From: a virus
DNA length: 33,713 nt
IMG/VR virus record: IMGVR_UViG_3300035698_008689
Location: 1-33,713 of that record
Strand: one strand, 5' to 3'
Of the stretch, positions 10,386-33,713 are shown one piece after another (the first letter of the stretch is position 1; every line of letters starts with the position of its first letter). The notes beneath the pieces were generated by a model, which had not been told where the DNA came from, did not search any database, and saw nothing but the letters and a program-made list of their open reading frames with translations. The position numbers and the translations under genes are program-made.

Positions 10386-10565
10386 ATGGCTAAAAAGAAT
10401 ATTAATAAGAAACAGATTGTCAAAAAGATGCGAGAAGTGTTTAAAGCGACAGAATGGGCAATCATGAAAGAATTAGATTATCATTTATTCATATATTATG
10501 ATAATGAATTAATCACAGAAGCAGAATTTGAAAAATTAAACATAAAAATTAGAGGTGAACAATAA
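10386..10565 (+). CDS. Small basic protein of unknown function
   Basis: This encodes 59 aa. ATG 10386 follows AGGTGA, which overlaps the previous stop codon, and the gene ends by sharing one base with the sheath start (TAATG). The N-terminus is Lys-rich (MAKKNINKKQIVKKMREVF) and the C-terminal half looks like a small folded unit (DYHLFIYYDNELITEAEFEKL). Tight packing and good ribosome-binding context support it as real. It may be translationally coupled to the sheath. No family is recognised. Confidence 0.7.
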   Translation: MAKKNINKKQIVKKMREVFKATEWAIMKELDYHLFIYYDNELITEAEFEKLNIKIRGEQ

Positions 10566-11983
10566 TGGTTTACAATCCAAGAATTGACATTCAAGTTCAA
10601 GAAAACTTGACATTAACAACTCCTGGTGGACCTGCAGTTATTGCTCTAATGGGTACAGCACAATGGGGAGCAATCGATGAAGTTCAGACTTTTTCATCAT
10701 ATGCAAACTTATTGAATTATTATAAAGCAGACTCTTCACTTTTAACATTAGTAAAAGGTGCAGACATTGCATATAATAACGGTGCTTACGTCATTAAAGC
10801 AGTTAGAGTAGGACATACAGGTTATGCAAAAGCTACAAAAGATTTTGCAGGTGGAGCAGCAGCAGTTTCCGACGCTATCGCATTCGATGGTTTATATCAC
10901 GGAACATACGGAAACAATATATTAGTAACAGTTTTAACAAAAGGCTCAGGTAGAACAATCACAGCAACTGATGGAGTCATTTCTGAAACATTTACTAATA
11001 ATAATGATGCTAATGGTTATGTCACAAACGCAGCAATAGGAACAGCAATAAACGGAAACTCACAATTAATATCCGCAACAATTGCATCAGGAAGCGAAGC
11101 TGCTAATTTAATAGACGCAATCACAGCAACAGCATTAGTAAGTGGATCAGACGGAACAACAAGTATTGCATTCTCCGACTTCACAACATCATTCGATTCA
11201 ACATTAAATCTGGAAACTTATGATTTATTATTAATACCTGGACAAAGTACAGATTCCGATCACACATCAATGGTTGCAAAATTAAATACAAGGGCAACAA
11301 ATGAAAAGAAATTCTCTATGTATTTCACAGGTGTAACAGCTGAAGAAGCAATTTCAGTACAGAAAGCGAGAGCAGCAGCAGGATCAAGATTAGTTTTATG
11401 TTCTCCGAGTATGCAATACACACCATCATACAGTTCAGTTGAAGTTGTTATGGACGGAAGTTATTTAGCATGTGCGGTTGCTGGAAAGGTCGCTTCACAA
11501 GATTTAGAAGTTGCAGTAACTAGAAAAGTATTATCTGTCTCAGATTTAATAGTTCTAACAGCATCATCTAAAAAATATTACAACGCTGGAGAATTAGAAG
11601 AATTACTTGGAGCAGGAATCCTACCAGTCAGCTTAATCAATGGTTCATTGAAAGTCGCTAGAGGTGTTACAAGGAATACAGATAAAACTTCAATATACTA
11701 CGAAATAACAATCCAAAGAATCGTAGATTATGTAAAAGCACAAGTAGAAGAAAAGCTTGATGGTTTCTTAGGAGATCCAAATTTAGGAAGAATAAGAAAT
11801 GTTATGGCGAGAGAAGTAGATGGATTATTACATCAAGACACTTTAGATGAAATAATTGTAGATTATCAGCCAACAGAAGTTGTAGAAGGAGTTAGTCCAG
11901 ATACAGTTCTTGTGAACATGATAATTCAACCAACATTTAGTATAAATTTCATTAACGTTACACTAAGCGTTAATAGGTTATAG
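10565..11983 (+). CDS. Contractile tail sheath protein
   Basis: This 472-aa protein is clearly a tail sheath, the outer layer that contracts to drive the tube through the host envelope. The N-terminus has TTPGGPAVIALMGTAQWG, the typical opening in which the viral tail meets standing pressure from the baseplate end. A variable outer domain follows (about 100-280). The conserved C-terminal part has YYNAGELEELLGAGILPV, ARGVTRNTDKTSIYYEIT, then IQRIVDYVKAQVEE, and a final strand (FSINFINVTLSVNRL). The C-terminal strand that links neighbouring subunits appears intact. It starts at ATG 10565 behind GAGGTGAAC. The tube gene follows 12 nt later. Confidence 0.93.
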   Translation: MVYNPRIDIQVQENLTLTTPGGPAVIALMGTAQWGAIDEVQTFSSYANLLNYYKADSSLLTLVKGADIAYNNGAYVIKAVRVGHTGYAKATKDFAGGAAAVSDAIAFDGLYHGTYGNNILVTVLTKGSGRTITATDGVISETFTNNNDANGYVTNAAIGTAINGNSQLISATIASGSEAANLIDAITATALVSGSDGTTSIAFSDFTTSFDSTLNLETYDLLLIPGQSTDSDHTSMVAKLNTRATNEKKFSMYFTGVTAEEAISVQKARAAAGSRLVLCSPSMQYTPSYSSVEVVMDGSYLACAVAGKVASQDLEVAVTRKVLSVSDLIVLTASSKKYYNAGELEELLGAGILPVSLINGSLKVARGVTRNTDKTSIYYEITIQRIVDYVKAQVEEKLDGFLGDPNLGRIRNVMAREVDGLLHQDTLDEIIVDYQPTEVVEGVSPDTVLVNMIIQPTFSINFINVTLSVNRL

Positions 11984-11995
11984 AGGTGAATAGAA

Positions 11996-12400
11996 ATGGT
12001 AAATCAAAGAATTAGTCTTAAAGACATAGATGTTTCTATAAATGGAGTAATAATTGGTGGAGCAGAAGAATTAAGTTGCACAATCGCAAGAGATAATGCT
12101 AAAGCACTTGAAGGTGGAAGTTATATGCCAGCAGAAATCGTAGCTGGAGCATTTGATATTTCAGGAAGCATGACAAGAGCTTTTGTAGATGTCGATTTGT
12201 TAAATCAATTAATGCCACAAACAGCAATCGCTGCAAGTGTAACAATAACAGGTTCAATTAATAACGGAAAAACTCCATTAAGAAATATGTCTATATATGG
12301 AGCAGTATTCGACAGCGTAGCTATTGAGGGTTTAGGATTAACAGATTATGCTAAAAATCCAATGCCATTCAAAGCAACTGGTTGGAAATTTTCTAAATAA
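11996..12400 (+). CDS. Tail tube protein
   Basis: This encodes 134 aa starting at ATG 11996 after GAGGTGAATAGAA. It directly follows the sheath gene, as the tube gene does in contractile tails. The sequence has the beta-barrel pattern of tube proteins: an N-terminal LKDIDVSINGVIIGGAEELS hairpin, a central FDISGSMTRAF strand, and a C-terminal SVAIEGLGLTDYAKNPMPF followed by a closing strand. Dozens of hexameric rings form the tube, so high expression is expected; codon style and the following hairpin plus T-tract fit that. Confidence 0.88.
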   Translation: MVNQRISLKDIDVSINGVIIGGAEELSCTIARDNAKALEGGSYMPAEIVAGAFDISGSMTRAFVDVDLLNQLMPQTAIAASVTITGSINNGKTPLRNMSIYGAVFDSVAIEGLGLTDYAKNPMPFKATGWKFSK

Positions 12401-12444: not shown

Positions 12445-12654
12445 ATGAGATTAGTAATGGATGCAAAAAGACACAAACAAGTATTTAGATTAAATATTGC
12501 AGAATTTAAAAAAGGCGATTGGTTAAAAGAAATTCCAATTTCCGATTTATTAGAAGTAACATACAAAAACGATCATTTGACTATCAATAATGCGATATTA
12601 TTGAAGACAAAAAATTTCGAGAAGAAAGATGGAGAAGATTCAAATGCAAAATAA
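12445..12654 (+). CDS. Small protein between tube and tail chaperones
   Basis: This encodes 69 aa. ATG 12445 has GGTGA 4 nt upstream; an in-frame ATG at 12427 precedes that site and is less likely. The protein is basic at the start and end with a central beta part (ISDLLEVTYKNDHLTINNAI). It overlaps the next gene by 26 nt. Its position before the chaperone pair suggests a tail assembly role, but no family is recognised. Confidence 0.65.
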   Translation: MRLVMDAKRHKQVFRLNIAEFKKGDWLKEIPISDLLEVTYKNDHLTINNAILLKTKNFEKKDGEDSNAK

Positions 12655-13042
12655 AACAACAGTACCAAAACCACACGATGAAGAAGTTCCTAAAATAGTA
12701 GAAAGTTTTGAGGACGCAGAAGTAGTAGAAGAAGAAAAACCACAATTCCCACATTGGATGAAAGAATTACCAAGTGGCGAATATTCAGTACAAACAAAAG
12801 ACGGCGAATTTATATTCGCAGAACTTAATTACGATGATATTAGATCAATCAGGAAAAGACTGACTGCAAACGGCAGGAAAAAAGTTGAAGGAGATGTTCT
12901 CTCTGCAGCTATGATATCAAAAGGTTTAACCAATAGATCAATGGGTGAACTAGATATTTTAGAGCTTAAAGGTTCTACAGTTATGAGATTACTAAACGCA
13001 GCTAATAAGTTATATAGTCTTGATGATTTTTTACAAAGTTGA
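12629..13042 (+). CDS. Tail assembly chaperone, short form (gpG-like)
   Basis: This encodes 137 aa. The gene overlaps its predecessor; a start at ATG 12644 with GGAGAAG upstream is an alternative. An acidic, disordered N-terminus (about 1-40) leads into a compact domain (about 45-135) with IRKRLTANGRKKVEGDVLSA, and the protein ends YSLDDFLQS. Tail assembly chaperones are encoded just before the tape measure and bind it before tube polymerisation. The same place, size and downstream overlapping ORF are seen here, together with a T TTT TTA slippery heptamer 6 nt before the stop. Assignment comes from context and frameshift architecture rather than sequence similarity. Confidence 0.75.
   Translation: MEKIQMQNKTTVPKPHDEEVPKIVESFEDAEVVEEEKPQFPHWMKELPSGEYSVQTKDGEFIFAELNYDDIRSIRKRLTANGRKKVEGDVLSAAMISKGLTNRSMGELDILELKGSTVMRLLNAANKLYSLDDFLQS
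13027..13033 (+). promoter_or_regulatory. Predicted -1 ribosomal frameshift site (T TTT TTA)
   Basis: In the frame of the gene at 12629 the codons read GAT TTT TTA CAA AGT TGA, giving the canonical X XXY YYZ heptamer T TTT TTA in phase. A -1 slip continues ACA AAG TTG AAA in the frame of the gene at 13039 without a stop, yielding a fusion of about 204 aa (135 + 69). An 8-bp stem (13038-13045 with 13106-13113) begins 4 nt downstream and might stimulate slippage. Confidence 0.72.
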
Positions 13043-13242
13043 AAGACCTCATTGAATATAACCGATATATCGAAGAAATCGAAAAGGATGTGAAGAAAAG
13101 TATAACTTTCAACATTTCTTTGCGATGGAATATCGATATTGAGGTCGTTGAAAGTTGGAGTCTTTCTAAAATAAAAAAACATTATTCGGCTTTGATGTAT
13201 GAAATAGAAAAACAAAAAAGATCGATAAAAGATCGAAAGTGA
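13039..13242 (+). CDS. Tail assembly chaperone extension (T part of a G-T fusion)
   Basis: This encodes 67 aa if started at TTG 13039, which overlaps the preceding stop, but it is more likely read as the extension of the previous gene after -1 frameshifting, adding 69 residues. The product is helical and highly charged (YNRYIEEIEKDVKKSI, SLSKIKKHYSALMYEIEKQK), as expected for the tape-measure-binding T domain. The phase relation is exactly -1 and no good ribosome binding site precedes the TTG. The tape measure gene begins 4 nt after its stop. Confidence 0.72.
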   Translation: MKDLIEYNRYIEEIEKDVKKSITFNISLRWNIDIEVVESWSLSKIKKHYSALMYEIEKQKRSIKDRK

Positions 13243-13246
13243 TACT

Positions 13247-14806
13247 ATGGCGAAACGGACATTTGATATTGTATTTAATACAAACATTGGAGATGTTGTC
13301 AACAAGACAACCAAACTGAATTCAGAATTAGAATTGATGGTTCTAGTAAACCAAAACATTAATGGTGTTGCGAAATCTCAATTAGGTACATATAGCCAAA
13401 TAAATGATTCACTAGAAAAAATGACAGGTCATGCAGATCGTACCGAAGATGAATTAGAACAAATTGAAAAAATGACTAATAAGATTAATAATAATATGCA
13501 AGATATCGAAAGTCCGTTCGAAAGCATATTATCTAACATCGTTCCATTCGGTTCACAAATAGTAAAACAAAATCACCGACTTACTGACATGGTTTCTGCA
13601 TTTGGTAAGGTCGAAAAAGCTGGTGGTTTTACGAATGTGTTGACTGATTATATGGCCAATTTCGGCACTAAGGTTGGTAAAGTTTCGGGATTTGTCAAGA
13701 ATGCTTTTGGCGGAGGACTTTCTGGAATGTTAACTAAGGCATCAGCAAGTCTTACTGGATTAACTTCTTCCTTTGCAGCATTACTACCGGTGATTATCCC
13801 AATTGGAATAGCCATAGCTGCTATTATTGCAGCATTGTTTACTTTACAAAGAATGTGGGTTAATAATGTAGGTGGAATGCAAACAACCTTCAATAAATTC
13901 GTTGCGACAATTCAACAAATGTGGAATAGATTCGTTGTTAATTTTGATAGAACATTAAGAGCTATTGGTCCAATAATTAAAATATTAATTGATCAAGCTG
14001 TACAACCATTGTTCAATTTCTTGACAATGATAAGTGGTGTGCTTGATGGTTTCTTTGCGGTTTTAATGCCAATCGCAGATGCAGCTGGAGAATTAGGTGC
14101 AGCATTCTCAGAAGCATTTGGAATTATGGGTGATGATGCAGCTTTTGACCAAATGACAATGATGGGTGGAGTGATTAAATTCGTTGGTGAAGTCTTGGGT
14201 GGACTTTTAAGATTAGTATTGAAACCATTAGTTGCAATATTGAAAGTATTTGCAACTGTCTTAGGAACAATATTATCACCATTGAAAATTATATACGATC
14301 TTGTTACAGATTTATTTACTAATATTTCTAACGCTGGATCCGATATGGCGAATGCATTAGATGTTGAACCGTTAAACTTATTCAAGGACATTTTAGTATT
14401 CATACAAGGCGTCTTAGACGGGATTTTTGGGACAATCAGTGATATCGGAAAAGCAATTACAGACGTTATTGATCCAATAGGAACATTAGCAGAAGCGTTT
14501 GACATGAACATTGGTGGAACAATCGACGATCTTGCAACAGCAACGAATGGATTACTTGGAGATATAATGGGTGGATTAGGAATGCTTGGGGAAATGGTTA
14601 CAGGTGATTCTGAAACTATTAGTCCAGACTCAGCACTACCTTCTGGACCAATCTCATCAAGCCAAGTAACTAGAAATGATAATAATAATACTACAAATAA
14701 TAATAATAACGTTGTTGTAAATTCATCAGGACCAATAACTGCAGAATCTGCACCTGGAGTTGCAAATTTAATTTCAGCAATGTTAACAACCAAATCGAGG
14801 TTATAA
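13247..14806 (+). CDS. Tape measure protein
   Basis: This encodes 519 aa starting at ATG 13247 behind AGTGATACT. The layout is typical: a helical, coiled-coil N-terminal region (1-110), a Gly/Ala-rich part, a hydrophobic segment at about 176-200 (LLPVIIPIGIAIAAIIAALF) that may span the membrane during DNA delivery, further amphipathic and hydrophobic helices, and a polar, Asn-rich C-terminal linker followed by a short hydrophobic end. Tape measures set tail length. At the usual rule of about 0.15 nm per residue this predicts a tail near 75-80 nm, shorter than in most myoviruses. No lytic-enzyme domain is visible. Confidence 0.85.
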   Translation: MAKRTFDIVFNTNIGDVVNKTTKLNSELELMVLVNQNINGVAKSQLGTYSQINDSLEKMTGHADRTEDELEQIEKMTNKINNNMQDIESPFESILSNIVPFGSQIVKQNHRLTDMVSAFGKVEKAGGFTNVLTDYMANFGTKVGKVSGFVKNAFGGGLSGMLTKASASLTGLTSSFAALLPVIIPIGIAIAAIIAALFTLQRMWVNNVGGMQTTFNKFVATIQQMWNRFVVNFDRTLRAIGPIIKILIDQAVQPLFNFLTMISGVLDGFFAVLMPIADAAGELGAAFSEAFGIMGDDAAFDQMTMMGGVIKFVGEVLGGLLRLVLKPLVAILKVFATVLGTILSPLKIIYDLVTDLFTNISNAGSDMANALDVEPLNLFKDILVFIQGVLDGIFGTISDIGKAITDVIDPIGTLAEAFDMNIGGTIDDLATATNGLLGDIMGGLGMLGEMVTGDSETISPDSALPSGPISSSQVTRNDNNNTTNNNNNVVVNSSGPITAESAPGVANLISAMLTTKSRL

Positions 14807-17212: not shown

Positions 17213-17707
17213 ATGAATTATAAAGAAAGATTGAATAAAATGTACGAAAAAGTAGTTTATACAAAGTTCGGAATGCCTGAAGACGAAGCATCTAAAAACG
17301 AAAAAGAAGCAAAAACATTCGTTGATAAAATTAATAAATTCGCAGCAAAGAAAATCACAGAAATAAATAATTGGTTGATTGATAGGATATCAGAACAACA
17401 AGATAACGAGATTTTTAGGAATTTAAGTTCAGATAAATCCTCTGGTCAATATTATTCTTATGAGCCTATAGACTCAACTGAAGGTATATTTTTCGTAGAT
17501 GTTAATTTCTTAATCAAAAAAAGAGGAAATGTTATTGGTAAGCTTGGTAAATTCCCACGAATAAGAGATGCTATGGCGAAGAAAATAAAATTGCCAGTGC
17601 CATATTATGATTTAAGAAGAGAAAAAGTAGAGGAAGGTAACCACAGAGTTGCAGTCTCGAAAGAAATAGGATTAAAGAGTGTACCTGTGAGAATATTTTG
17701 GAAGTGA
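17213..17707 (+). CDS. ParB-like domain protein with MNYKERLN N-terminus
   Basis: This encodes 164 aa. It starts with MNYKERLN, identical to the gene at 482. Residues about 15-75 are charged and helical. The C-terminal part ends with EEGNHRVAVSKEIGLKSVPV, the conserved box of ParB/sulfiredoxin-like domains (usually DGxHR), including GNHR at 142-145. PVPYYDLRREKV before it fits the same fold. ParB-like domains bind CTP or act as nucleases or kinases in different families, so activity cannot be assigned. Its place between spike and tip genes is unusual. The shared N-terminus suggests delivery into the particle; that is a hypothesis. Confidence 0.72.
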   Translation: MNYKERLNKMYEKVVYTKFGMPEDEASKNEKEAKTFVDKINKFAAKKITEINNWLIDRISEQQDNEIFRNLSSDKSSGQYYSYEPIDSTEGIFFVDVNFLIKKRGNVIGKLGKFPRIRDAMAKKIKLPVPYYDLRREKVEEGNHRVAVSKEIGLKSVPVRIFWK

Positions 17708-21715: not shown

Positions 21716-22693
21716 ATGGTATTACAATTTGATAAAAACGAAAAAGTATATGAATCTGATCTAAATAACTTAGCAGTTATGAATTACCAATCGGTAAGAG
21801 ATGGCTGTACAGTTATTCAAAGAACTCCACAAATCATGGGAGTTAGAGTTGAAGCGGGAAGCGTGTTTTTTACAAGTACTGTTGTTACAGTATCGCAAGC
21901 AGATGTTTCAATTACAGCAGCTGATCCTAGTAACAATAGGTTAGACCTTATTGTTGTTAATGCTTCTGGTGTTGCAAGTGTAATAACAGGTACACCTGCA
22001 CTTGAACCACAGACACCTACATATGATCCGCTAACTTATGTTGTATTGGCTAGGGTATTGGTACAAGATATATCAACTCAAATCTTCACGGCAGACATTC
22101 GAGACTTGAGAGTTTTAAGATATGAATTATTTTCAAAATTTATTGAATCTTCAATCGTTGCACAATCAACAGTTGTTGTCACTCATAACTTGGGAGATGC
22201 TGAACCAATGGTAAGTTGTTACGAAGGCGGAACAGTATTAGTAATTCCAGAATCAGTAACACTAGATAACACCAACCAATTAACAGTAACGTTCGATCCT
22301 GTGTTCACCGGAAGGATAATAGTATTTGGTGGAACAGGTGGATTACCAGTTGGCGGAGGAAGTCTTACATTAACAGTTGCAGAACAAGACGGAACACCAA
22401 CAGTACTTACAGTTAATGAATTAAAATTATCAGATGGTACATTAACCGATGATGGTTCAGGTGTTGTTAGCTTAGATCTATCTGGAACTATTAACTCGTA
22501 TATTCACAGCCAAGGTGTGACATCAGCAACTTGGACAGTTACACATAATTTAGGTGAAAAGTATGTTAGCGTTATGGTTTATGATTCAACCGATGTATGG
22601 ATTCAACCTAATAGTATAACATTAGTGGACGCTAATACATTGACAATTGGATTATCAGGATCAATTGTAGGAACTGCAGTTGTTAAAAAGTAG
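21716..22693 (+). CDS. Tail fibre protein with two copies of the shared C-terminal beta module
   Basis: This encodes 325 aa. The N-terminal 130 residues match a common fibre head module (YESDLNNLAVMNYQSVRDG, NNRLDLIVVNASGVASVITG). Then come two copies of a ~60-residue module repeated across this cluster: one internal (VVVTHNLGDAEPMVSCYEGG to GRIIVFGG) and one at the C-terminus (WTVTHNLGEKYVSVMVYDST to the last residue). A low-complexity linker sits between them. The carboxy-terminal copy probably forms the receptor-facing knob. ATG 21716 is 11 nt after GGTGA, a long spacing. Confidence 0.72.
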   Translation: MVLQFDKNEKVYESDLNNLAVMNYQSVRDGCTVIQRTPQIMGVRVEAGSVFFTSTVVTVSQADVSITAADPSNNRLDLIVVNASGVASVITGTPALEPQTPTYDPLTYVVLARVLVQDISTQIFTADIRDLRVLRYELFSKFIESSIVAQSTVVVTHNLGDAEPMVSCYEGGTVLVIPESVTLDNTNQLTVTFDPVFTGRIIVFGGTGGLPVGGGSLTLTVAEQDGTPTVLTVNELKLSDGTLTDDGSGVVSLDLSGTINSYIHSQGVTSATWTVTHNLGEKYVSVMVYDSTDVWIQPNSITLVDANTLTIGLSGSIVGTAVVKK

Positions 22694-22702
22694 GTGAACA
22701 TA

Positions 22703-23539
22703 ATGGTTAGATTTATAGGGAATGCAGAAGAAATTAGATTAGTTAATTTATTACCTGGATCTGCTCCAGGATCTCCATCAGAAGGAGACTTGTATTACGA
22801 CACGGTTGCTAAAGTTCTTAAACTACGAAACGACACAGCCTTCTTAGATTTATTAACCGAAGGCTCTGGAATAGAAGTTACAGACTTTACAGCAAAAGGT
22901 GATATGTTAATTGCAACAGGTGCAGGAACATACATCGCATTAGGTGTAGGTACTGATGGATATATTTTAACTGCAAACTCTGGCGAATCCACTGGAGTTG
23001 CATGGACAATACCAGCTGGGGATATTAACGAAGTTATCGCAGGAGCAGGTTTGACCGGTGGCGGATCTTCAGGATCTGTTACACTAGATGCTGTTGGTGG
23101 CAATGGAATTTATGTTTCAGCAAATTCATTTGCTGTTGATTTATCTGCGACCTCAGGTTTAAGTTTTTTGACAGGTGCATTAGAAATAGATGATTCTGTT
23201 GCTGGTTGGGGTCTTGACATTGTAAACAAAATTATAAAGATTGATCCAAGTGATACTAGTATTTTTGATACATCGGTATTAACAAACACAGTATCTAAAG
23301 TTCCAGTCTGTAGTGTTGTTAAAACTTATGTTGATGCAACAGCAAAACAATATACCCAAGCATTCACAACGCAAACAATTATTATCGTTTCACATAGTTT
23401 GGCGAGATACCCGATAGTTCAAATTTTAGATTCTTCTGGATATGTAGTGATCCCAGATGAAGTTCAACACACAACTACAAGTTCATTCACAGTAACATTC
23501 TCAGTAGCAACAACAGGTACGATTGTATATGTTGGTTAG
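22703..23539 (+). CDS. Tail fibre protein, short paralogue of the fibre family
   Basis: This encodes 278 aa. ATG 22703 lies 5 nt after GGTGA; a GTG at 22694 is within that site. An N-terminal module (VRFIGNAEEIRLVNLLPGSA, GDLYYDTVAKVLKLRND) is a divergent form of the anchor seen in the next three genes. The middle has the shaft motif ITSL-type GAGLTGGGSSGSVTLDAVGG with NGIYVSANSFAVDLS, common in trimeric fibres. The C-terminus (IIVSHSLARYPIVQILDSSG to GTIVYVG) is another copy of the shared knob module. It probably assembles as a trimer on the baseplate. Confidence 0.7.
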   Translation: MVRFIGNAEEIRLVNLLPGSAPGSPSEGDLYYDTVAKVLKLRNDTAFLDLLTEGSGIEVTDFTAKGDMLIATGAGTYIALGVGTDGYILTANSGESTGVAWTIPAGDINEVIAGAGLTGGGSSGSVTLDAVGGNGIYVSANSFAVDLSATSGLSFLTGALEIDDSVAGWGLDIVNKIIKIDPSDTSIFDTSVLTNTVSKVPVCSVVKTYVDATAKQYTQAFTTQTIIIVSHSLARYPIVQILDSSGYVVIPDEVQHTTTSSFTVTFSVATTGTIVYVG

Positions 23540-23547
23540 GTGATTAT

Positions 23548-26112
23548 ATGGTAAGAATAATAGGAAATTTAAATTTCGATGAAAACGAAGCAAAAAATAT
23601 GGTTGTTCATACAGGAACAGCGTTTCCCGCAACACCAACTGCTGGTCAATTATTCTACCGTTCAGACTTAATAAAGACTTATTATTATAGCGGAACATCA
23701 TGGGTAGACTTGAAATCTATCGCAGACATTGATGTTAATGATTTAAAATTATCATACAGCTCAAAAGGTGGATTGAATACATCAATTGATTATGCAGCTG
23801 GAGACACACCACAAACTGGTAACAACTGGATTGAAGATGAAAAGTATGGTTGGTGGCAAGGAAGAAATTCATTAGCAATGTCATCTGAATTTGATTCCGA
23901 AGTTACTAGAACCGGAAAATATACAGTAAAGCTTTCAGCTACAGACATTACAGGTGCTGGATACATTGCAAATATAAATGCAGTGTATGCTGTTGATTAT
24001 TTGAAAAGAAAGGCTCCGAGAATGAATGGTAGTTCTAAATATAGATTAACGTGCTATGTAAAAGGAAACAATGTTGCGACAGATGCTGCATATTTAGAAG
24101 TAAAAGAATACAATGTAACATCTTTAATTGTTACAAATACAAGCACGAAATTATCAGGGACATTTGATTGGACTCCAATTGTAATGGAATTTACTTCAAA
24201 TGCATCTACTGATAGATTTTGTATGAAGTTTGTTAATGGTGTTGTTGGAAATATTTCAGATGTATGGTTCGATGCAAATTCAATGACACTCGAAAAAATT
24301 ACTACCGACACAACATATGTTGGGAACACTGCAGAAAGAATAAGACCGATGTTCCAAGCATCTTCATATGATAATTATATCGACCAAACACAAGTAGTAA
24401 AAGATAGAAATCAGCCAGCTGGAACAAATAAATACGGTTCAGATTTCACACCCAGTGTTGATAACTTATCTAATATTAGCATTCAAATGTATGCTACAAG
24501 CGGAACTGCAACAGGTACGGTGTTAGTTAGTATTCAAGGTGCATCTGCTAATTTACCAGATGGAGTTATATATTTCGAAGATACTTTTGATTTAACATCA
24601 TTAACTTCTGGATATGTAGAATATAAAATTCCGATGCCATGTGTGTTAGAAGCTGGAACTCAATATTTCATTACATTAGATTTCGCGAATCATACAGGTT
24701 CAGAAGTATATTTAAGAGCAAGTACAGCGTCCATTAATTATGGCGCGATTGACACTGGTGCAGGATGGATTGCATGGTCACCTAAAATTTATTATAATAC
24801 TTATTTAAACGCACAGACACAAGGATATAAAATTATTTGTAACGGTATAAAAACCGAGATAAAATCAGATAAGTTTGGATTCTTAGATGATTCGGTTATT
24901 GATTTAGATAACGGGTTGTATCGATGGAACATCGGAAACTCCAGTAATACATTAATTACAGAAGCACAATATTGGTCATTCATGAACCAATTAATCGAAC
25001 AAACTGGGGACTTTTTCATTTGGTTATCGAATTCTATTGGAATGGATATCCCATCAACTGCAAAATCTGGAACAGGAACATTCAAAGTAAACTTTGGAGC
25101 AAGAGCAAAAAGAGTTACATTCGACACTAAATATTATTCACTCGCTGGAGATAATTTTAAAATGGAATGGTCTTATGATAACGAATCTTGGACTGCTCTA
25201 CCATTGATTTTAGACAATTCCGTAAATGAATTAGTTCAATCATACGACATTGACACTGATGGGATTTATGTTAGATTCACATTGAGTAATGCAGGTGGTG
25301 GATTCAGAAGTAAGTTTTATCGATTCAATATTGAAGCTGAATTAGATACTTCCACAATCGCAACAGGATTATTTTATCCATTGTTACAAGAGCATGCATT
25401 CACAGAATCAATAAAATTACCACAAGAGGTAAATAGAATTTATTACAGAACCAAAAAATATCAAAATGCTGATGGAGTTCTGATGCCAGCATTAGAATAT
25501 TATTCAAATTCCTCAGGTGTAGCGATCGGACATACATTCGTGCAGATTGACAATTCACAGGAACCAAACGCTTGTATAATTTTCGAAAGCGAAACAACAG
25601 GATTCACTCAGACTGGTGGAGGTTCTTCTGTTGGAACAGGATACTCAATTAATAACAATGAATATATGACATTAGGCACCTATTATTCAGAGCTTAGAGT
25701 TACGTACAAAATTGGAATCGGTTCACATACATTCAATGATATTACAATGAATGCATTGTATACATCTGTTGATTCTTCATATCCTGAAGATACATTCGTT
25801 TCTAGTAATCAATCCAATATTGTTATTGGAATACGAGAACAAAATGATAAGGAAAGTATTAATGAATTGGGTGTAGAATTACAGAATGTTAAGAATGGAT
25901 TGAATGACAAATTGAATAAATTCACTCAAACATTTACTGCAATCACGACAGTAACAGCATTTCATAATTTAGATTCAGAAAATATTATGGTGAATGTTTA
26001 TGATGATACAGGCGCAAAGATTATCCCTTCAACAATTACGATTGTTGATGTTGATAATATTACAGTTACATTTAGCGGTTCAACAACAGGTAAAATAATA
26101 ATTATTGGATGA
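23548..26112 (+). CDS. Long tail fibre / receptor-binding protein A
   Basis: This encodes 854 aa starting at ATG 23548 behind AGGTGATTAT. Residues 1-52 are the shared anchor (NMVVHTGTAFPATPTAGQLF, YYYSGTSWVDL). A carbohydrate-binding-like beta-sandwich follows at about 85-250 (EVTRTGKYTVKLSA, KYRLTCYVKGNN, VWFDANSMTLEKI). The long central part shares landmarks with the next gene (IICNGIKTEIKS, DSVIDLDNGLYRW, ELDTSTIATGLFYP, NRIYYRTKKYQNADGV, IDNSQEPNACI). The end (TAFHNLDSENIMVNVYDDTG to KIIIIG) is the shared knob. Two full-length paralogues in tandem suggest duplication and divergence of receptor-binding proteins. No enzyme motif is visible. Confidence 0.78.
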   Translation: MVRIIGNLNFDENEAKNMVVHTGTAFPATPTAGQLFYRSDLIKTYYYSGTSWVDLKSIADIDVNDLKLSYSSKGGLNTSIDYAAGDTPQTGNNWIEDEKYGWWQGRNSLAMSSEFDSEVTRTGKYTVKLSATDITGAGYIANINAVYAVDYLKRKAPRMNGSSKYRLTCYVKGNNVATDAAYLEVKEYNVTSLIVTNTSTKLSGTFDWTPIVMEFTSNASTDRFCMKFVNGVVGNISDVWFDANSMTLEKITTDTTYVGNTAERIRPMFQASSYDNYIDQTQVVKDRNQPAGTNKYGSDFTPSVDNLSNISIQMYATSGTATGTVLVSIQGASANLPDGVIYFEDTFDLTSLTSGYVEYKIPMPCVLEAGTQYFITLDFANHTGSEVYLRASTASINYGAIDTGAGWIAWSPKIYYNTYLNAQTQGYKIICNGIKTEIKSDKFGFLDDSVIDLDNGLYRWNIGNSSNTLITEAQYWSFMNQLIEQTGDFFIWLSNSIGMDIPSTAKSGTGTFKVNFGARAKRVTFDTKYYSLAGDNFKMEWSYDNESWTALPLILDNSVNELVQSYDIDTDGIYVRFTLSNAGGGFRSKFYRFNIEAELDTSTIATGLFYPLLQEHAFTESIKLPQEVNRIYYRTKKYQNADGVLMPALEYYSNSSGVAIGHTFVQIDNSQEPNACIIFESETTGFTQTGGGSSVGTGYSINNNEYMTLGTYYSELRVTYKIGIGSHTFNDITMNALYTSVDSSYPEDTFVSSNQSNIVIGIREQNDKESINELGVELQNVKNGLNDKLNKFTQTFTAITTVTAFHNLDSENIMVNVYDDTGAKIIPSTITIVDVDNITVTFSGSTTGKIIIIG

Positions 26113-26118
26113 TTATAT

Positions 26119-28677
26119 ATGGTAAAAGCAATCGGAAGTATAGACTTAGATGAGAATCAATCGGAAAACATGGTTGTAGATAGTGGTACATCTTTTCCAG
26201 TTGCACCAACATCCGGTCAATTATTCTATCGAACAGATTTAAAATTATTATATTATTACGATGTTATAGAATGGATGGAACAATCTGGGATCCCAAGCAA
26301 AGACATCAGCGAATTAAAGTTAGCTACTGAAGTTTCTGGAGGAATCTTAAATGGTTCATTCGAAAAAGGAACAGGTAGCAGAACAACAAATGGAATTATC
26401 GGAACAGATTATGATTATGGCTGGGGACTTTATAAAGGTTCATCAGCTGTTTGTGAAGCTGGTTTCGATCCGAATGTTAAATATTCCGGAACGCAATCAA
26501 TGAAGCTTAACGTAACGACAGCAAGTGGACTGACGACATTAATGAATCATTTCGATTGGACTAATTATGCGGCGTGGGCAAAATCAAGAAGTAAGTATTA
26601 TATTAAAGTTAAACCATCAACTAAGTATAGATTCTCATTTATGTATAGGATGCAAGATGTTTCAACCACTACTGGCAATTTCCAAATGCGATGTTATATG
26701 TCTAATGATGTTTTCATAAATACACAATCTTTCTTAAATGCATTTGGCAACGGAACTATTGATTGGACTCCATACACATATGAATTTTCAACCGATTCTG
26801 ATGTTGAGTATGCTAAATTATTTTTTTCATTATATAATGAAACCGGAACAGTTTGGATTGATGATGTGAAGTTCGAAGAGATTTATGAAGACGCTCTTTT
26901 TGATTCTAACGTCGTTTCTAAAGTTAGACCGGTATTCCAGTCACAATCAAGGACAGATCAAGTTGACCAAAATTTAGATATTACTGGATTAGTTTATACA
27001 AATATATATTCATTAACAACTGCAATTGATGAAGGTTCAGCACATAAACAAACGATTAATACTAGAGCTAATAATGTTTATTCTGTGAAAGTTGTTGTTG
27101 CCGATAAAGGAACAGGTGACTGGACTGCAATTTTACATGATTCAAGTAATAATGAACTCGCAAGACATAAAATAGTGAATGCTTCATTGACAGATGGAGT
27201 ATTTAATGAATTTCTATTACAGGCGAATAATGTCTTCTGGGAAACTTTTGGAGCTGTTCATTTACATTTAATATCTAGTGTTGCAGACGGTACTGCAAGA
27301 TGTGGTACAACCGAAAGTTTAGAGACTTGTAGTTATATCCAAACGTTCACAAAACGAAACAACAGTTTTTCTTTAATTTGTAACGGCGTAAAGACCGAAT
27401 TAACTACTAAAGATTCAACAGGAATGTTGCATGAATCCATCATAGACATTGATAACGCTAAATATTCATACTACCAGATGTATGGTTCGAATTATGATGG
27501 AGCAGCAAGAAACGATATTTTAGAAACCAGTCTTGGCGGTGGAACATCAACTGTCAGACGTGCATATAATGGCTTTTCAATGTCAACAGGAGAAGTCTAT
27601 TCTAATTCAGGATCTGAAGAAAGATACTTTATTTGGAAAGTAAACACAATATTACCTATAAAACACTTACGCATAAAGACCGAGGGATATTCGTTTAATA
27701 CAAATCCGATATTATGGCAAGTGTCTAAGGACAAAATAAATTGGGAAACTGTTTTTACTGTTAATATCGGTGGAAACTCCAGAGTATACGGAGACATCGA
27801 AACAGATTTAATGAATGGTGAAAATTCATTCTATCTTAGATTATACAAGAACACAAATTTATATTTAAGTTTAATATCTCTTGGGATTGAAGCAGACTTA
27901 GACACAAGCACAGTTCCAACAGGATTTTTATATCCAACAGATGTAGAACATCGATTTACGAAAACGATATTTTCAAACACAGACTCTATTGATATTGGGA
28001 GAATTTATTACAGAAAGAATAAATTCGTTAATAGCTACGGAGTGATCCAGCCAGCATTAGAATACACAGACAACAACAATTGGTACATTACCCATACCTT
28101 TTTAGAGATAGATAACAGCCAAGAAGCAAACCCATGTGTTTCTATATTAGATGACACTACTAATTGGCAACAATCTGGTTCTGGTTCTCCGGAAAGCACC
28201 ACTGGGTACATCTTAAACGATGGCGAACATCTAGCTATTACCTCAGTATCTCAAGATGCTTCAATCGTTTATAAAATAGGAACAGGAACAACTACATTTT
28301 CGAACATTACAAAGAATAGTTTTTATTTAACTTCTAATAATCAGTTCGCAGACATTTCAAATATGTCCAGCAGATCATTCACTTATGTATCTGGGATCTT
28401 AGAAGCAAACATACCGCAATCAATAAAAAAAGTAAGCAAAGATTTACAATTATTGAAAATGTCAAATAAGAATGACATCAAACGAGTTGTAGCTGATATT
28501 GATGCAACTACTGATATTAATGTTTATCATGATTTAAATACCGAAGATGTAATCATTAATGTTATTGATGACACCAATGAAGTAATAATCCCCAATAGCG
28601 TAACGATCATAGATAAGAACACAATCAATGTAACATTTACATTAGGAATTACAGGAAAAATAATAATCATAGGATAA
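26119..28677 (+). CDS. Long tail fibre / receptor-binding protein B (paralogue of A)
   Basis: This encodes 852 aa, almost the same length as its upstream neighbour and with the same layout. Anchor (NMVVDSGTSFPVAPTSGQLF), carbohydrate-binding-like domain at about 70-255 (KYSGTQSMKLNVT, KYRFSFMYRMQDV, VWIDDVKFEEI), central landmarks (LICNGVKTELTT, ESIIDIDNAKYS, DLDTSTVPTGFLYP, GRIYYRKNKFVNSYGV, IDNSQEANPCV) and shared knob (VYHDLNTEDVIINVIDDTNE to KIIIIG) are recognisable. Similarity is strongest at both ends and weaker in the region about 290-440. ATG 26119 follows GATGATTAT only 6 nt after the previous stop. Confidence 0.78.
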   Translation: MVKAIGSIDLDENQSENMVVDSGTSFPVAPTSGQLFYRTDLKLLYYYDVIEWMEQSGIPSKDISELKLATEVSGGILNGSFEKGTGSRTTNGIIGTDYDYGWGLYKGSSAVCEAGFDPNVKYSGTQSMKLNVTTASGLTTLMNHFDWTNYAAWAKSRSKYYIKVKPSTKYRFSFMYRMQDVSTTTGNFQMRCYMSNDVFINTQSFLNAFGNGTIDWTPYTYEFSTDSDVEYAKLFFSLYNETGTVWIDDVKFEEIYEDALFDSNVVSKVRPVFQSQSRTDQVDQNLDITGLVYTNIYSLTTAIDEGSAHKQTINTRANNVYSVKVVVADKGTGDWTAILHDSSNNELARHKIVNASLTDGVFNEFLLQANNVFWETFGAVHLHLISSVADGTARCGTTESLETCSYIQTFTKRNNSFSLICNGVKTELTTKDSTGMLHESIIDIDNAKYSYYQMYGSNYDGAARNDILETSLGGGTSTVRRAYNGFSMSTGEVYSNSGSEERYFIWKVNTILPIKHLRIKTEGYSFNTNPILWQVSKDKINWETVFTVNIGGNSRVYGDIETDLMNGENSFYLRLYKNTNLYLSLISLGIEADLDTSTVPTGFLYPTDVEHRFTKTIFSNTDSIDIGRIYYRKNKFVNSYGVIQPALEYTDNNNWYITHTFLEIDNSQEANPCVSILDDTTNWQQSGSGSPESTTGYILNDGEHLAITSVSQDASIVYKIGTGTTTFSNITKNSFYLTSNNQFADISNMSSRSFTYVSGILEANIPQSIKKVSKDLQLLKMSNKNDIKRVVADIDATTDINVYHDLNTEDVIINVIDDTNEVIIPNSVTIIDKNTINVTFTLGITGKIIIIG

Positions 28678-28680
28678 ATT

Positions 28681-28696
28681 AATTATATTTAAATTA
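28681..28696 (+). promoter_or_regulatory. Archaeal TATA-type promoter before the last fibre and lysis genes
   Basis: AATTATATTTAAATTA matches the shared box. CATATATATAC at 28709-28719 lies in the expected start region, just before AAAAAGGTGAAATT and the ATG at 28733. Confidence 0.65.
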
Positions 28697-28732
28697 ATTA
28701 AATTATTCATATATATACAAAAAGGTGAAATT

Positions 28733-30616
28733 ATGAAAGTATATGGACCACTTGATATGCAAAAGAGCGAGATCGAAAATTTCGTCATTGATGTAGGAAC
28801 AGCATTCCCAGGGACACCAACCTTTGGGCAAATGTTCACACGAACCGATTTAAGCAAAATTTATTGGTATAATGGTGCAGCATGGACAGAATTAGCAGCA
28901 GCTTCTGGATCAGTTGCATTCACAGACCTTACAGACGTTCCTGCTAGTTATTCAGGACAAGGAACTAATATTGTCAGAGTAAACTCAGGAGCAAGTGCAT
29001 TAGAATTTTTATCAACAGTACCTATCTTAAATGGTGGTACTGGACAAACAACAGCAAACACAGCATTAAATGCTTTCTTACCAACACAAGGTGGAAACGC
29101 TGGTAAAGTATTACAAACCGATGCAACTAACACTAGTTGGGAAACCCCAGCATCTACAGGCACAGAATCTTTAGGATTATATGAGGATTTATCAGCTGGG
29201 GATTTAGTACAAATTGTTGATGATGCTGGTGTTGCAAAGTATGCAAAGATTAAATGTGGTGCTAACAAATTTTCAAAGGGGAACACATTTACTGGATCAG
29301 GCACAGCAACCGACACTCAAATTGTTTCATTATCATCTACTAAGATAATATATTCATACGATGTATCAAGTTCATGTTATGCAGTATGTGGAACTATTTC
29401 AGGTGAGACTATTACTTTCGGATCAGAGACTTCAATTGATCCAACTGTAAATTTTCTTGCAGACATGGAAAAACTAGACTCAACTCATGTGATTATTGCT
29501 TATTCAGATGCATCAACGTTATATCCAAGAGTCGTGATTGTTGATAATACAACAGGAACTACGATTGTTCCCGGAACTGTAGTTTCGCTTAATACTGCAA
29601 GTTGTCATAATTCAATATTTGTTAGTAGGATTGACGACACTCATTTCCTTGCAGTATATTCAAAATCCAATGGCGGGAATTATGATATTGTTGGAAGGAG
29701 ATGTACAGTCTCTGGAACCACAATCACTCAAGGAGCAGAACAAGCATTAGCGACTAATGTTACAGAATATATAACAGCAGTAACTGTATTAGACAGTTCA
29801 ACATTTAGTATCTCTTATAATGATTCTGGATATTACACAGCAGCTGGTTCTATCAGTGGAGACACCCTAACACTAGGAGCTGGAGTTTTAACATTAATTA
29901 ATAATTATAAGAAACCTATTAGAATATCTGACTCAAGTTATATGTTGGCAGATGATGATGGATGGCGTTCCAATTTAGCAGGAATCAGAACTGAATTATA
30001 CTCTGTATCAGGTACAACTACAACTTTACAATCTGTCAATCGTAGATTAATGATGATGATATACACTAGTACGAATGAAAATATCGAATATGTGTCAGGG
30101 ACAAGTGTTGGTGAAACAGGCGAAGTTATGTTATTATATATCGGTTCTGTTTCAGATAACGCGATTATCGTTCATGCAAAAGCTAATGGAAACTCGGTGA
30201 ACATCGGTTCTGTATATTCTATCGGAAATGCATCAGCGAGCTATGTATCTGAATGTGATATCAATTATTTAGATAATGGATTTGCTATTAGTTCTATACG
30301 AACAAATAGTAACGGCGTAATAACGATGATGAAATATAACGACGGATTCTCATGTATTGGAGCGATGTCAGAAGCTGGAACTGCAGGACAAACAAAATCT
30401 GCTAATTTATTGTTTACAACAAATGATGAACAGACTGGATTAACCCCAGGACAAAGTTATTATATAGATGAAGACGGTGGATTATCAGCGACACAAGAAG
30501 GAAAAAATGATAATAATCAAGAATATTATAGTACAACACCAGCAGGAATCGCAATAAGCAGCACAAAGTTATTATTGAATAATACAATAAATAAAAACAA
30601 TGTTGACAGATGGTGA
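28733..30616 (+). CDS. Tail fibre with probable beta-propeller domain
   Basis: This encodes 627 aa. The N-terminal ~55 residues are the shared anchor (IENFVIDVGTAFPGTPTFG, YWYNGAAWTEL). Then come common fibre modules: LTDVPASYSGQGTNIVRV and ILNGGTGQTTANTALNAF, with VLQTDATNTSWETP. Residues about 195-545 contain repeats of about 45-50 residues (TKIIYSYDVSSSCYAV, THVIIAYSDASTLYPRVVIV, THFLAVYSKSNGGNYDIVG, STFSISYNDSGYYTAAG) with a strand-turn-strand character that suggests a beta-propeller. The C-terminus (GLTPGQSYYIDEDGGLS, PAGIAISSTKLLL) is a frequent fibre ending and differs from the knob of the two preceding genes. It may bind a different receptor. It has its own promoter. Confidence 0.75.
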   Translation: MKVYGPLDMQKSEIENFVIDVGTAFPGTPTFGQMFTRTDLSKIYWYNGAAWTELAAASGSVAFTDLTDVPASYSGQGTNIVRVNSGASALEFLSTVPILNGGTGQTTANTALNAFLPTQGGNAGKVLQTDATNTSWETPASTGTESLGLYEDLSAGDLVQIVDDAGVAKYAKIKCGANKFSKGNTFTGSGTATDTQIVSLSSTKIIYSYDVSSSCYAVCGTISGETITFGSETSIDPTVNFLADMEKLDSTHVIIAYSDASTLYPRVVIVDNTTGTTIVPGTVVSLNTASCHNSIFVSRIDDTHFLAVYSKSNGGNYDIVGRRCTVSGTTITQGAEQALATNVTEYITAVTVLDSSTFSISYNDSGYYTAAGSISGDTLTLGAGVLTLINNYKKPIRISDSSYMLADDDGWRSNLAGIRTELYSVSGTTTTLQSVNRRLMMMIYTSTNENIEYVSGTSVGETGEVMLLYIGSVSDNAIIVHAKANGNSVNIGSVYSIGNASASYVSECDINYLDNGFAISSIRTNSNGVITMMKYNDGFSCIGAMSEAGTAGQTKSANLLFTTNDEQTGLTPGQSYYIDEDGGLSATQEGKNDNNQEYYSTTPAGIAISSTKLLLNNTINKNNVDRW

Positions 30617-33434: not shown

Positions 33435-33713
33435 TCACTTTATAAATTTGCAAAGTCTTGGTAAAGGACAATAACCTTTCCTTTTCACTGTCGTGCAACT
33501 TGGAGGAAGAATTATCCTTTTGTATAAATATTTCAATTGTCTTTCTTTAGTTATACAATGTAAGAACTTTTTCCTATCCATAAACTTTTTTAAAATATTT
33601 TCTATGTCTTTTTCACTGTATCCTTCTGAAATTAAATGAGTGATTACAATAAACCGTTCGTGATATGAATTGTCGAATTCGTTTATGGAAAGTAATATTT
33701 TTGCTACGCAAGG
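33435..33713 (-). CDS. priL: Archaeal-type DNA primase large subunit, C-terminal Fe-S domain (5' part outside window)
   Basis: The reverse strand is open from the right edge to a TGA at 33435-33437, giving 92 visible residues. They match the C-terminal iron-sulfur domain of archaeal/eukaryotic primase large subunits: PCVAKILLSINEFDNSYHER, FIVITHLISEGYSEKDIENI and, near the end, ILPPSCTTVKRKGYCPLPRL followed by Cys. The four cysteines (visible residues 2, 73, 82 and 88) are in the order expected to hold a 4Fe-4S cluster. PriL supports primer initiation and handover in archaeal replication. A virus-encoded copy implies its own primase. Whether a small-subunit domain is fused upstream cannot be seen. 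Confidence 0.85.
   Translation of the reverse strand, partial: PCVAKILLSINEFDNSYHERFIVITHLISEGYSEKDIENILKKFMDRKKFLHCITKERQLKYLYKRIILPPSCTTVKRKGYCPLPRLCKFIK

Follow-up and report, generated by a model that had tools for sequence, protein, structure and literature searches.

Frameshifted G/T tail assembly chaperones are the rule among tailed phages. In phage P2, a -1 shift occurs at TTTTTTG with no reported downstream structure (PMC3091744). For archaea, a review lists one reported cellular case of -1 frameshifting, the S. solfataricus fucosidase, together with predictions for haloarchaeal viruses (PMC8211752). According to two reviews, -1 frameshifting of the g-t pair has been proposed for HVTV-1, HCTV-1, HCTV-2 and HCTV-5, and a +1 frameshift for the chaperone pair of HSTV-2 (PMC5009743, PMC8211752). 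An unconventional +1 shift, with no conventional slippery heptamer, has been proposed for the HF1 group (PMC7230728).

Here we analyzed a 33,713-base IMG/VR virus record with 34% GC, referred to in its entirety as the window, in which a first-pass annotation of the bare sequence had proposed a programmed -1 frameshift in a tail chaperone gene read by archaeal ribosomes. From sequence comparison and structural modelling, we find it very likely that positions 12644-13242 encode a G/GT chaperone pair expressed by -1 slippage in a contractile-tailed archaeal virus.

A chaperone gene pair in the tail cluster

The locus lies within a plus-strand tail gene cluster, in which a tail sheath gene (10565-11983; phrog_279, E 4.5e-33) and a tail tube gene (11996-12400; PF18906 Phage_tube_2, E 1.3e-8, a score that passes the curated cut-off) are followed by a small conserved ORF (12445-12654), the G and T frames, and the tape measure gene (13247-14806; phrog_1272, E 2.9e-17), whose product is the expected client of the chaperone. 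A sheath initiator gp25, a baseplate J protein and a Mu gp48-like protein are encoded 3' of the tape measure gene. The order sheath-tube-small ORF-G-T-tape measure is also kept in the relatives described below, and the two small overlapping ORFs that separate tube from tape measure, in the window as in these relatives, lie where contractile-tailed viruses usually carry their tail assembly chaperone genes. The small ORF at 12445-12654 overlaps the start of the chaperone gene; it is present in seven lineages including the window (homologues in L157, L160, L163, L166, L167 and L187) and was not detected in L193 and L195.

Two further features of the window were observed outside this cluster. The otherwise different proteins encoded at 482-847 and 17213-17707 both carry MNYKERLN at or near the N-terminus, possibly a shared N-terminal signal, and consecutive tail-fibre-like ORFs at 21716-30616 have one related module in their N-terminal part (..GTAFPATPTAGQLFYRSDL..) and another in their C-terminal part (..VNVYDDTGAKIIPSTITIVDVDNITVTFSGSTTGKIIIIG), which suggests duplicated fibre genes.

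The zero-frame gene, G, occupies 12644-13042 on the plus strand. The first-pass annotation had referred to it as the gene at 12629; the likely start is instead the ATG at 12644, which stands behind a GGAG motif (12631-12634) with an anti-Shine-Dalgarno energy of -7.0 kcal/mol, versus -3.0 kcal/mol for the ATG at 12629, giving a product of 132 rather than 137 amino acids. Gene order, family profile matches and a structural model together identify this protein, as that annotation had it, as a tail assembly chaperone, probably of the XkdN-like type. Of the 10 family G proteins, 4 match phrog_389 ('XkdN-like'; best 1.3e-4) and PF08890 (Phage_TAC_5; best 0.003); both matches are weak, and the Pfam assignment is not confident. 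The window's own G matched no profile, these two included. When this G was modelled with AlphaFold2 (mean pLDDT 76, with a core near 90), the predicted fold was the same as that of YqbN (3klu). Among solved structures YqbN ranks first, above the other rows of the comparison, with a VIA-align Z of 8.4 and an rmsd of 5.0 across 90 residues, but a Foldseek E of only 0.54; the HK97 chaperone 2ob9 comes second (Z 5.2), and the best-matching viral models in BFVD include the tail assembly chaperone of the archaeal halovirus ChaoS9.

The G frame ends in the codons CTT GAT GAT TTT TTA CAA AGT TGA, and thus contains the heptamer T_TTT_TTA (13027-13033, plus strand) in the X_XXY_YYZ phase, separated by six nucleotides (CAA AGT) from the TGA stop at 13040-13042. 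In the -1 frame, a TGA at 13024-13026 lies directly upstream of the heptamer, such that there are zero open -1 codons before it; the frame opens at the heptamer itself and remains open to 13242. The two frames can consequently be joined only over 13027-13039, with a predicted fusion junction of LDDFL followed by TKLKDLIEY. The heptamer, its spacing to the stop, the uninterrupted -1 frame and the junction peptide all agree with what had first been described here. In-phase T_TTT_TTR occurs only twice among the 9,827 codons of the window.

In the proposed mechanism, most ribosomes would terminate at the TGA at 13040 and release G, while a minority would decode TTT in the P site and TTA in the A site, slip back by one base on both codons, and read the -1 frame to 13242, yielding a G-T fusion of about 199 amino acids. 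By analogy with lambda, G would bind the tape measure protein and the T part would recruit tube subunits (PMC5009743). The sequence downstream of the site shows no RNA structure, either in the window itself (z -0.8) or as a conserved feature of the family, marked hairpins being present only in L167, L195, L163 and L187; an upstream Shine-Dalgarno-like stimulator was absent from most family members.

Conservation of the site in an uncultivated virus family

Queries with one protein at a time recovered no relative, whether from viral contigs (G, sheath, capsid, baseplate J), from genome contigs (sheath) or from a phage collection (capsid and a primase-like fragment, see below). Distant sheath relatives with 25-31% identity were found in archaeal MAGs, in a sampling confined to archaeal phyla, and made profile queries possible. 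Profiles of baseplate J and sheath then recovered an uncultivated virus family in IMG/VR, whose baseplate J proteins are 34-60% identical to that of the window over full-length matches and whose genes are fully syntenic with it. The junction is readable in ten lineages, namely the window, L157, L166, L163, L160 (counted with the near-identical L161, L162 and L181), L184, L187 (counted with L189), L193, L195 and L167.

In-phase T_TTT_TTR is present at the same place in all ten lineages (TTA in the window, TTG elsewhere), and an alignment of the GT fusions shows SFL or DFL at the junction of each lineage. The zero-frame stop follows within 8 codons of the heptamer in 8/10 lineages and about 30 codons further on in L160 and L184, and the -1 continuation, 55-77 residues long (57-79 if the heptamer is included), stops close to where the tape measure gene begins throughout. 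Heptamer conservation in relatives had been put forward as a check on the frameshift, and relatives lacking any slippery site as its refutation; every lineage examined carries the site.

Given the amino acids, each contig's own codon usage and lineages taken as independent, the joint synonymous-codon probability of NNT TTT TTR at this site is about 2.5e-9. Family G proteins are only 22-39% identical to the window's G, so that synonymous sites should be saturated. The heptamer is kept in L166, L160 and L184, with GC contents of 54%, 43% and 42%, respectively; in L166 the frequencies of TTT, TTR and a T-ending serine codon are 0.19, 0.24 and 0.19. Over whole contigs, in-phase T_TTT_TTR occurs at 0.15-1 per 1,000 codons. 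Judging from this preservation across ten lineages, the slippery signal is almost certainly real, and together with the T continuation in each of them it supports the -1 shift originally proposed.

The sequence beyond the heptamer (13033-13242, plus strand; 69 amino acids after the shift) is a real protein domain. Homologous T frames are found in L157, L166 and L187/L189, with a clear motif (EW..VVALRWNLPIHEVEKW..V.RHFKA.KYE) common to the window, L157, L166 and L187. This motif is weaker in L160, L184, L193 and L195, and in L163 and L167, where identity to the T of the window falls to 10-18%, it is chiefly position and length that are retained; by these alignments the continuation is recognisably the same domain in most lineages. 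The model of T is helical and confident from residue 20 on (mean pLDDT 79). T gave no significant profile match, and its model no significant structural match in a fold search.

Host assignment and alternative readings

The host is very probably an archaeon, to judge by the genes that the virus and its relatives carry. The window encodes an ERCC4/XPF-type nuclease, genes for RadA (1pzn is the best PDB match, E 6.5e-101, with archaeal RadA entries next) and a family B polymerase (PolB) lie in the L166 contig, and the L162 contig encodes an intein-containing family B polymerase and an ATP-dependent ligase; the archaeal setting claimed at the outset is thereby upheld. A genuine frameshift in a virus of bacteria is an unlikely alternative. 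It would fit the failure to find a close relative among the genomes sampled from Nitrososphaeria, Asgard, Bathyarchaeia, Halobacteriota, Thermoplasmatota, Methanobacteriota, Methanosarcinia and the Thermococci group, the absence of an archaeal-specific match for most proteins, and the GGTGA-type ribosome binding sites, which are not exclusive to archaea, but it is opposed by the XPF-type nuclease, by the archaeal-type RadA and PolB of the relatives, and by the location of the distant sheath relatives in archaeal MAGs, though only archaeal phyla were sampled.

Two observations concern replication genes more generally. L201:5910-9347 corresponds to the family B DNA polymerase of the L162 virus, interrupted by an intein (PF14890 and LAGLIDADG matches). 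At the edge of the window, a truncated minus-strand ORF (33435-33713) resembles by eye the C-terminal part of an archaeal primase large subunit; PF04104 did not match this PriL-like fragment, and it was excluded from the host evidence.

Less likely still is the production of T as a protein in its own right, through termination-reinitiation or by initiation independent of G. A TTG at 13039 overlaps the stop codon (TTGA, 13039-13042), and coupled start-stops are common between genes of this virus. However, most window genes begin at an ATG preceded by a Shine-Dalgarno sequence of the GGTGA type at -7 to -12 kcal/mol, whereas the TTG at 13039 lacks such a sequence (-1.9 kcal/mol), as do the later GTG and TTG codons, and no ATG lies within reach. 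Moreover, the start-stop overlap is not conserved: in L157, L166, L187, L195 and L167 the first T start is reached only after about 25 codons, and L193 has no usable T start at all. A separate start for T was therefore rejected; independent initiation would also leave the retention of T_TTT_TTR in 10/10 lineages unexplained.

Slippage could in principle lie with the RNA polymerase rather than the ribosome, the T run giving rise to -1 transcripts. Polymerase slippage on homopolymers is known in principle, and a distant archaeal family lends the idea some support. In 18 contractile-tail loci from Nitrososphaeria, Bathyarchaeia and Halobacteriota MAGs (L129-L134, L144-L146, L148-L152 and L219-L222), the chaperone ORF, with phrog_344 matches, ends in an A run (A9 in 14/18, otherwise A7, A10 or A11). 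The ORF that comes after it (SPEGQELAALCLDYGYKLA..) lies in -1 at 11/18 loci and in +1/-2 at 7/18, mixed frames that suggest polymerase slippage or loosely constrained slippage at these A runs. In the window's family, by contrast, the run is only six T long, shorter than typical transcriptional slippage sites, and in all ten lineages its length stays at exactly six with a purine next, its zero-frame phase is X_XXY_YYZ, and T lies in -1 without exception, which is the pattern predicted for tandem slippage on the ribosome. We consequently regard a transcriptional origin as slightly less likely even than separate initiation.

Finally, a sequencing error or frameshift mutation that split one protein, as the overlap of only a few codons between the two frames might suggest, has a negligible probability and is refuted by conservation, since independent assemblies of ten lineages all show this split and this heptamer.

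Relation to known frameshifting systems

Ribosomal -1 slippage remains the most likely reading of the junction. The G/T frameshift as such has precedents in phages and in a few haloarchaeal viruses, and the novelty implied in the first-pass annotation was overstated, since two reviews (PMC5009743, PMC8211752) already report -1 frameshifting of the gene pair for HVTV-1, HCTV-1, HCTV-2 and HCTV-5. What is new is its very probable occurrence in an uncultivated family of contractile archaeal viruses, which would extend the G/GT rule to this group. Beyond this, we lean towards the view, with considerable reservation, that U_UUU_UUR is used on archaeal ribosomes across the whole family with no conserved RNA stimulator.

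If this holds, programmed -1 frameshifting, which has barely been tested in archaea, could be studied there with the tail chaperone as a natural and portable system. The family contains ten versions of a compact U-rich site that differ by natural variation and lie beyond the haloarchaeal isolates; they could serve as ready reporter constructs. Furthermore, the predicted GT protein will be missed by routine annotation of such genomes.

Several described systems resemble parts of this locus. Lambda G/GT is alike in arrangement and in the proposed roles of the short and long chaperones, while lambda is a siphovirus with another slippery site; mature lambda virions contain neither G nor GT (PMC5009743). 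The XkdN/YqbN-like chaperones of PBSX-type elements (PF08890, phrog_389, 3klu) share the predicted G fold and the gene position, with weak sequence similarity to the family G proteins. Among archaeal viruses, HSTV-2 and the HF1 group are myoviruses in which, as here, a pair of overlapping chaperone ORFs separates tube from tape measure, but for which a +1 frameshift is proposed (PMC5009743, PMC7230728) in place of the -1 shift of the window. HVTV-1, HCTV-1, HCTV-2 and HCTV-5 share with the window a G/T pair expected to be read by a -1 shift on archaeal ribosomes (PMC5009743, PMC8211752); they are siphoviruses, in contrast to the contractile-tailed window virus, and the slippery sites quoted for the three HCTV viruses are of the A/G type, whereas the U-only site of the window matches that of P2. 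P2, with its E and E+E' products, and the P2-like phages share with the window the contractile tail and the gene pair between tube and tape measure, as well as a -1 shift at T_TTT_TTG for which no downstream hairpin has been reported (PMC3091744). P2 and its relatives infect bacteria, and their likeness to the window's locus is one of arrangement and slippery site.
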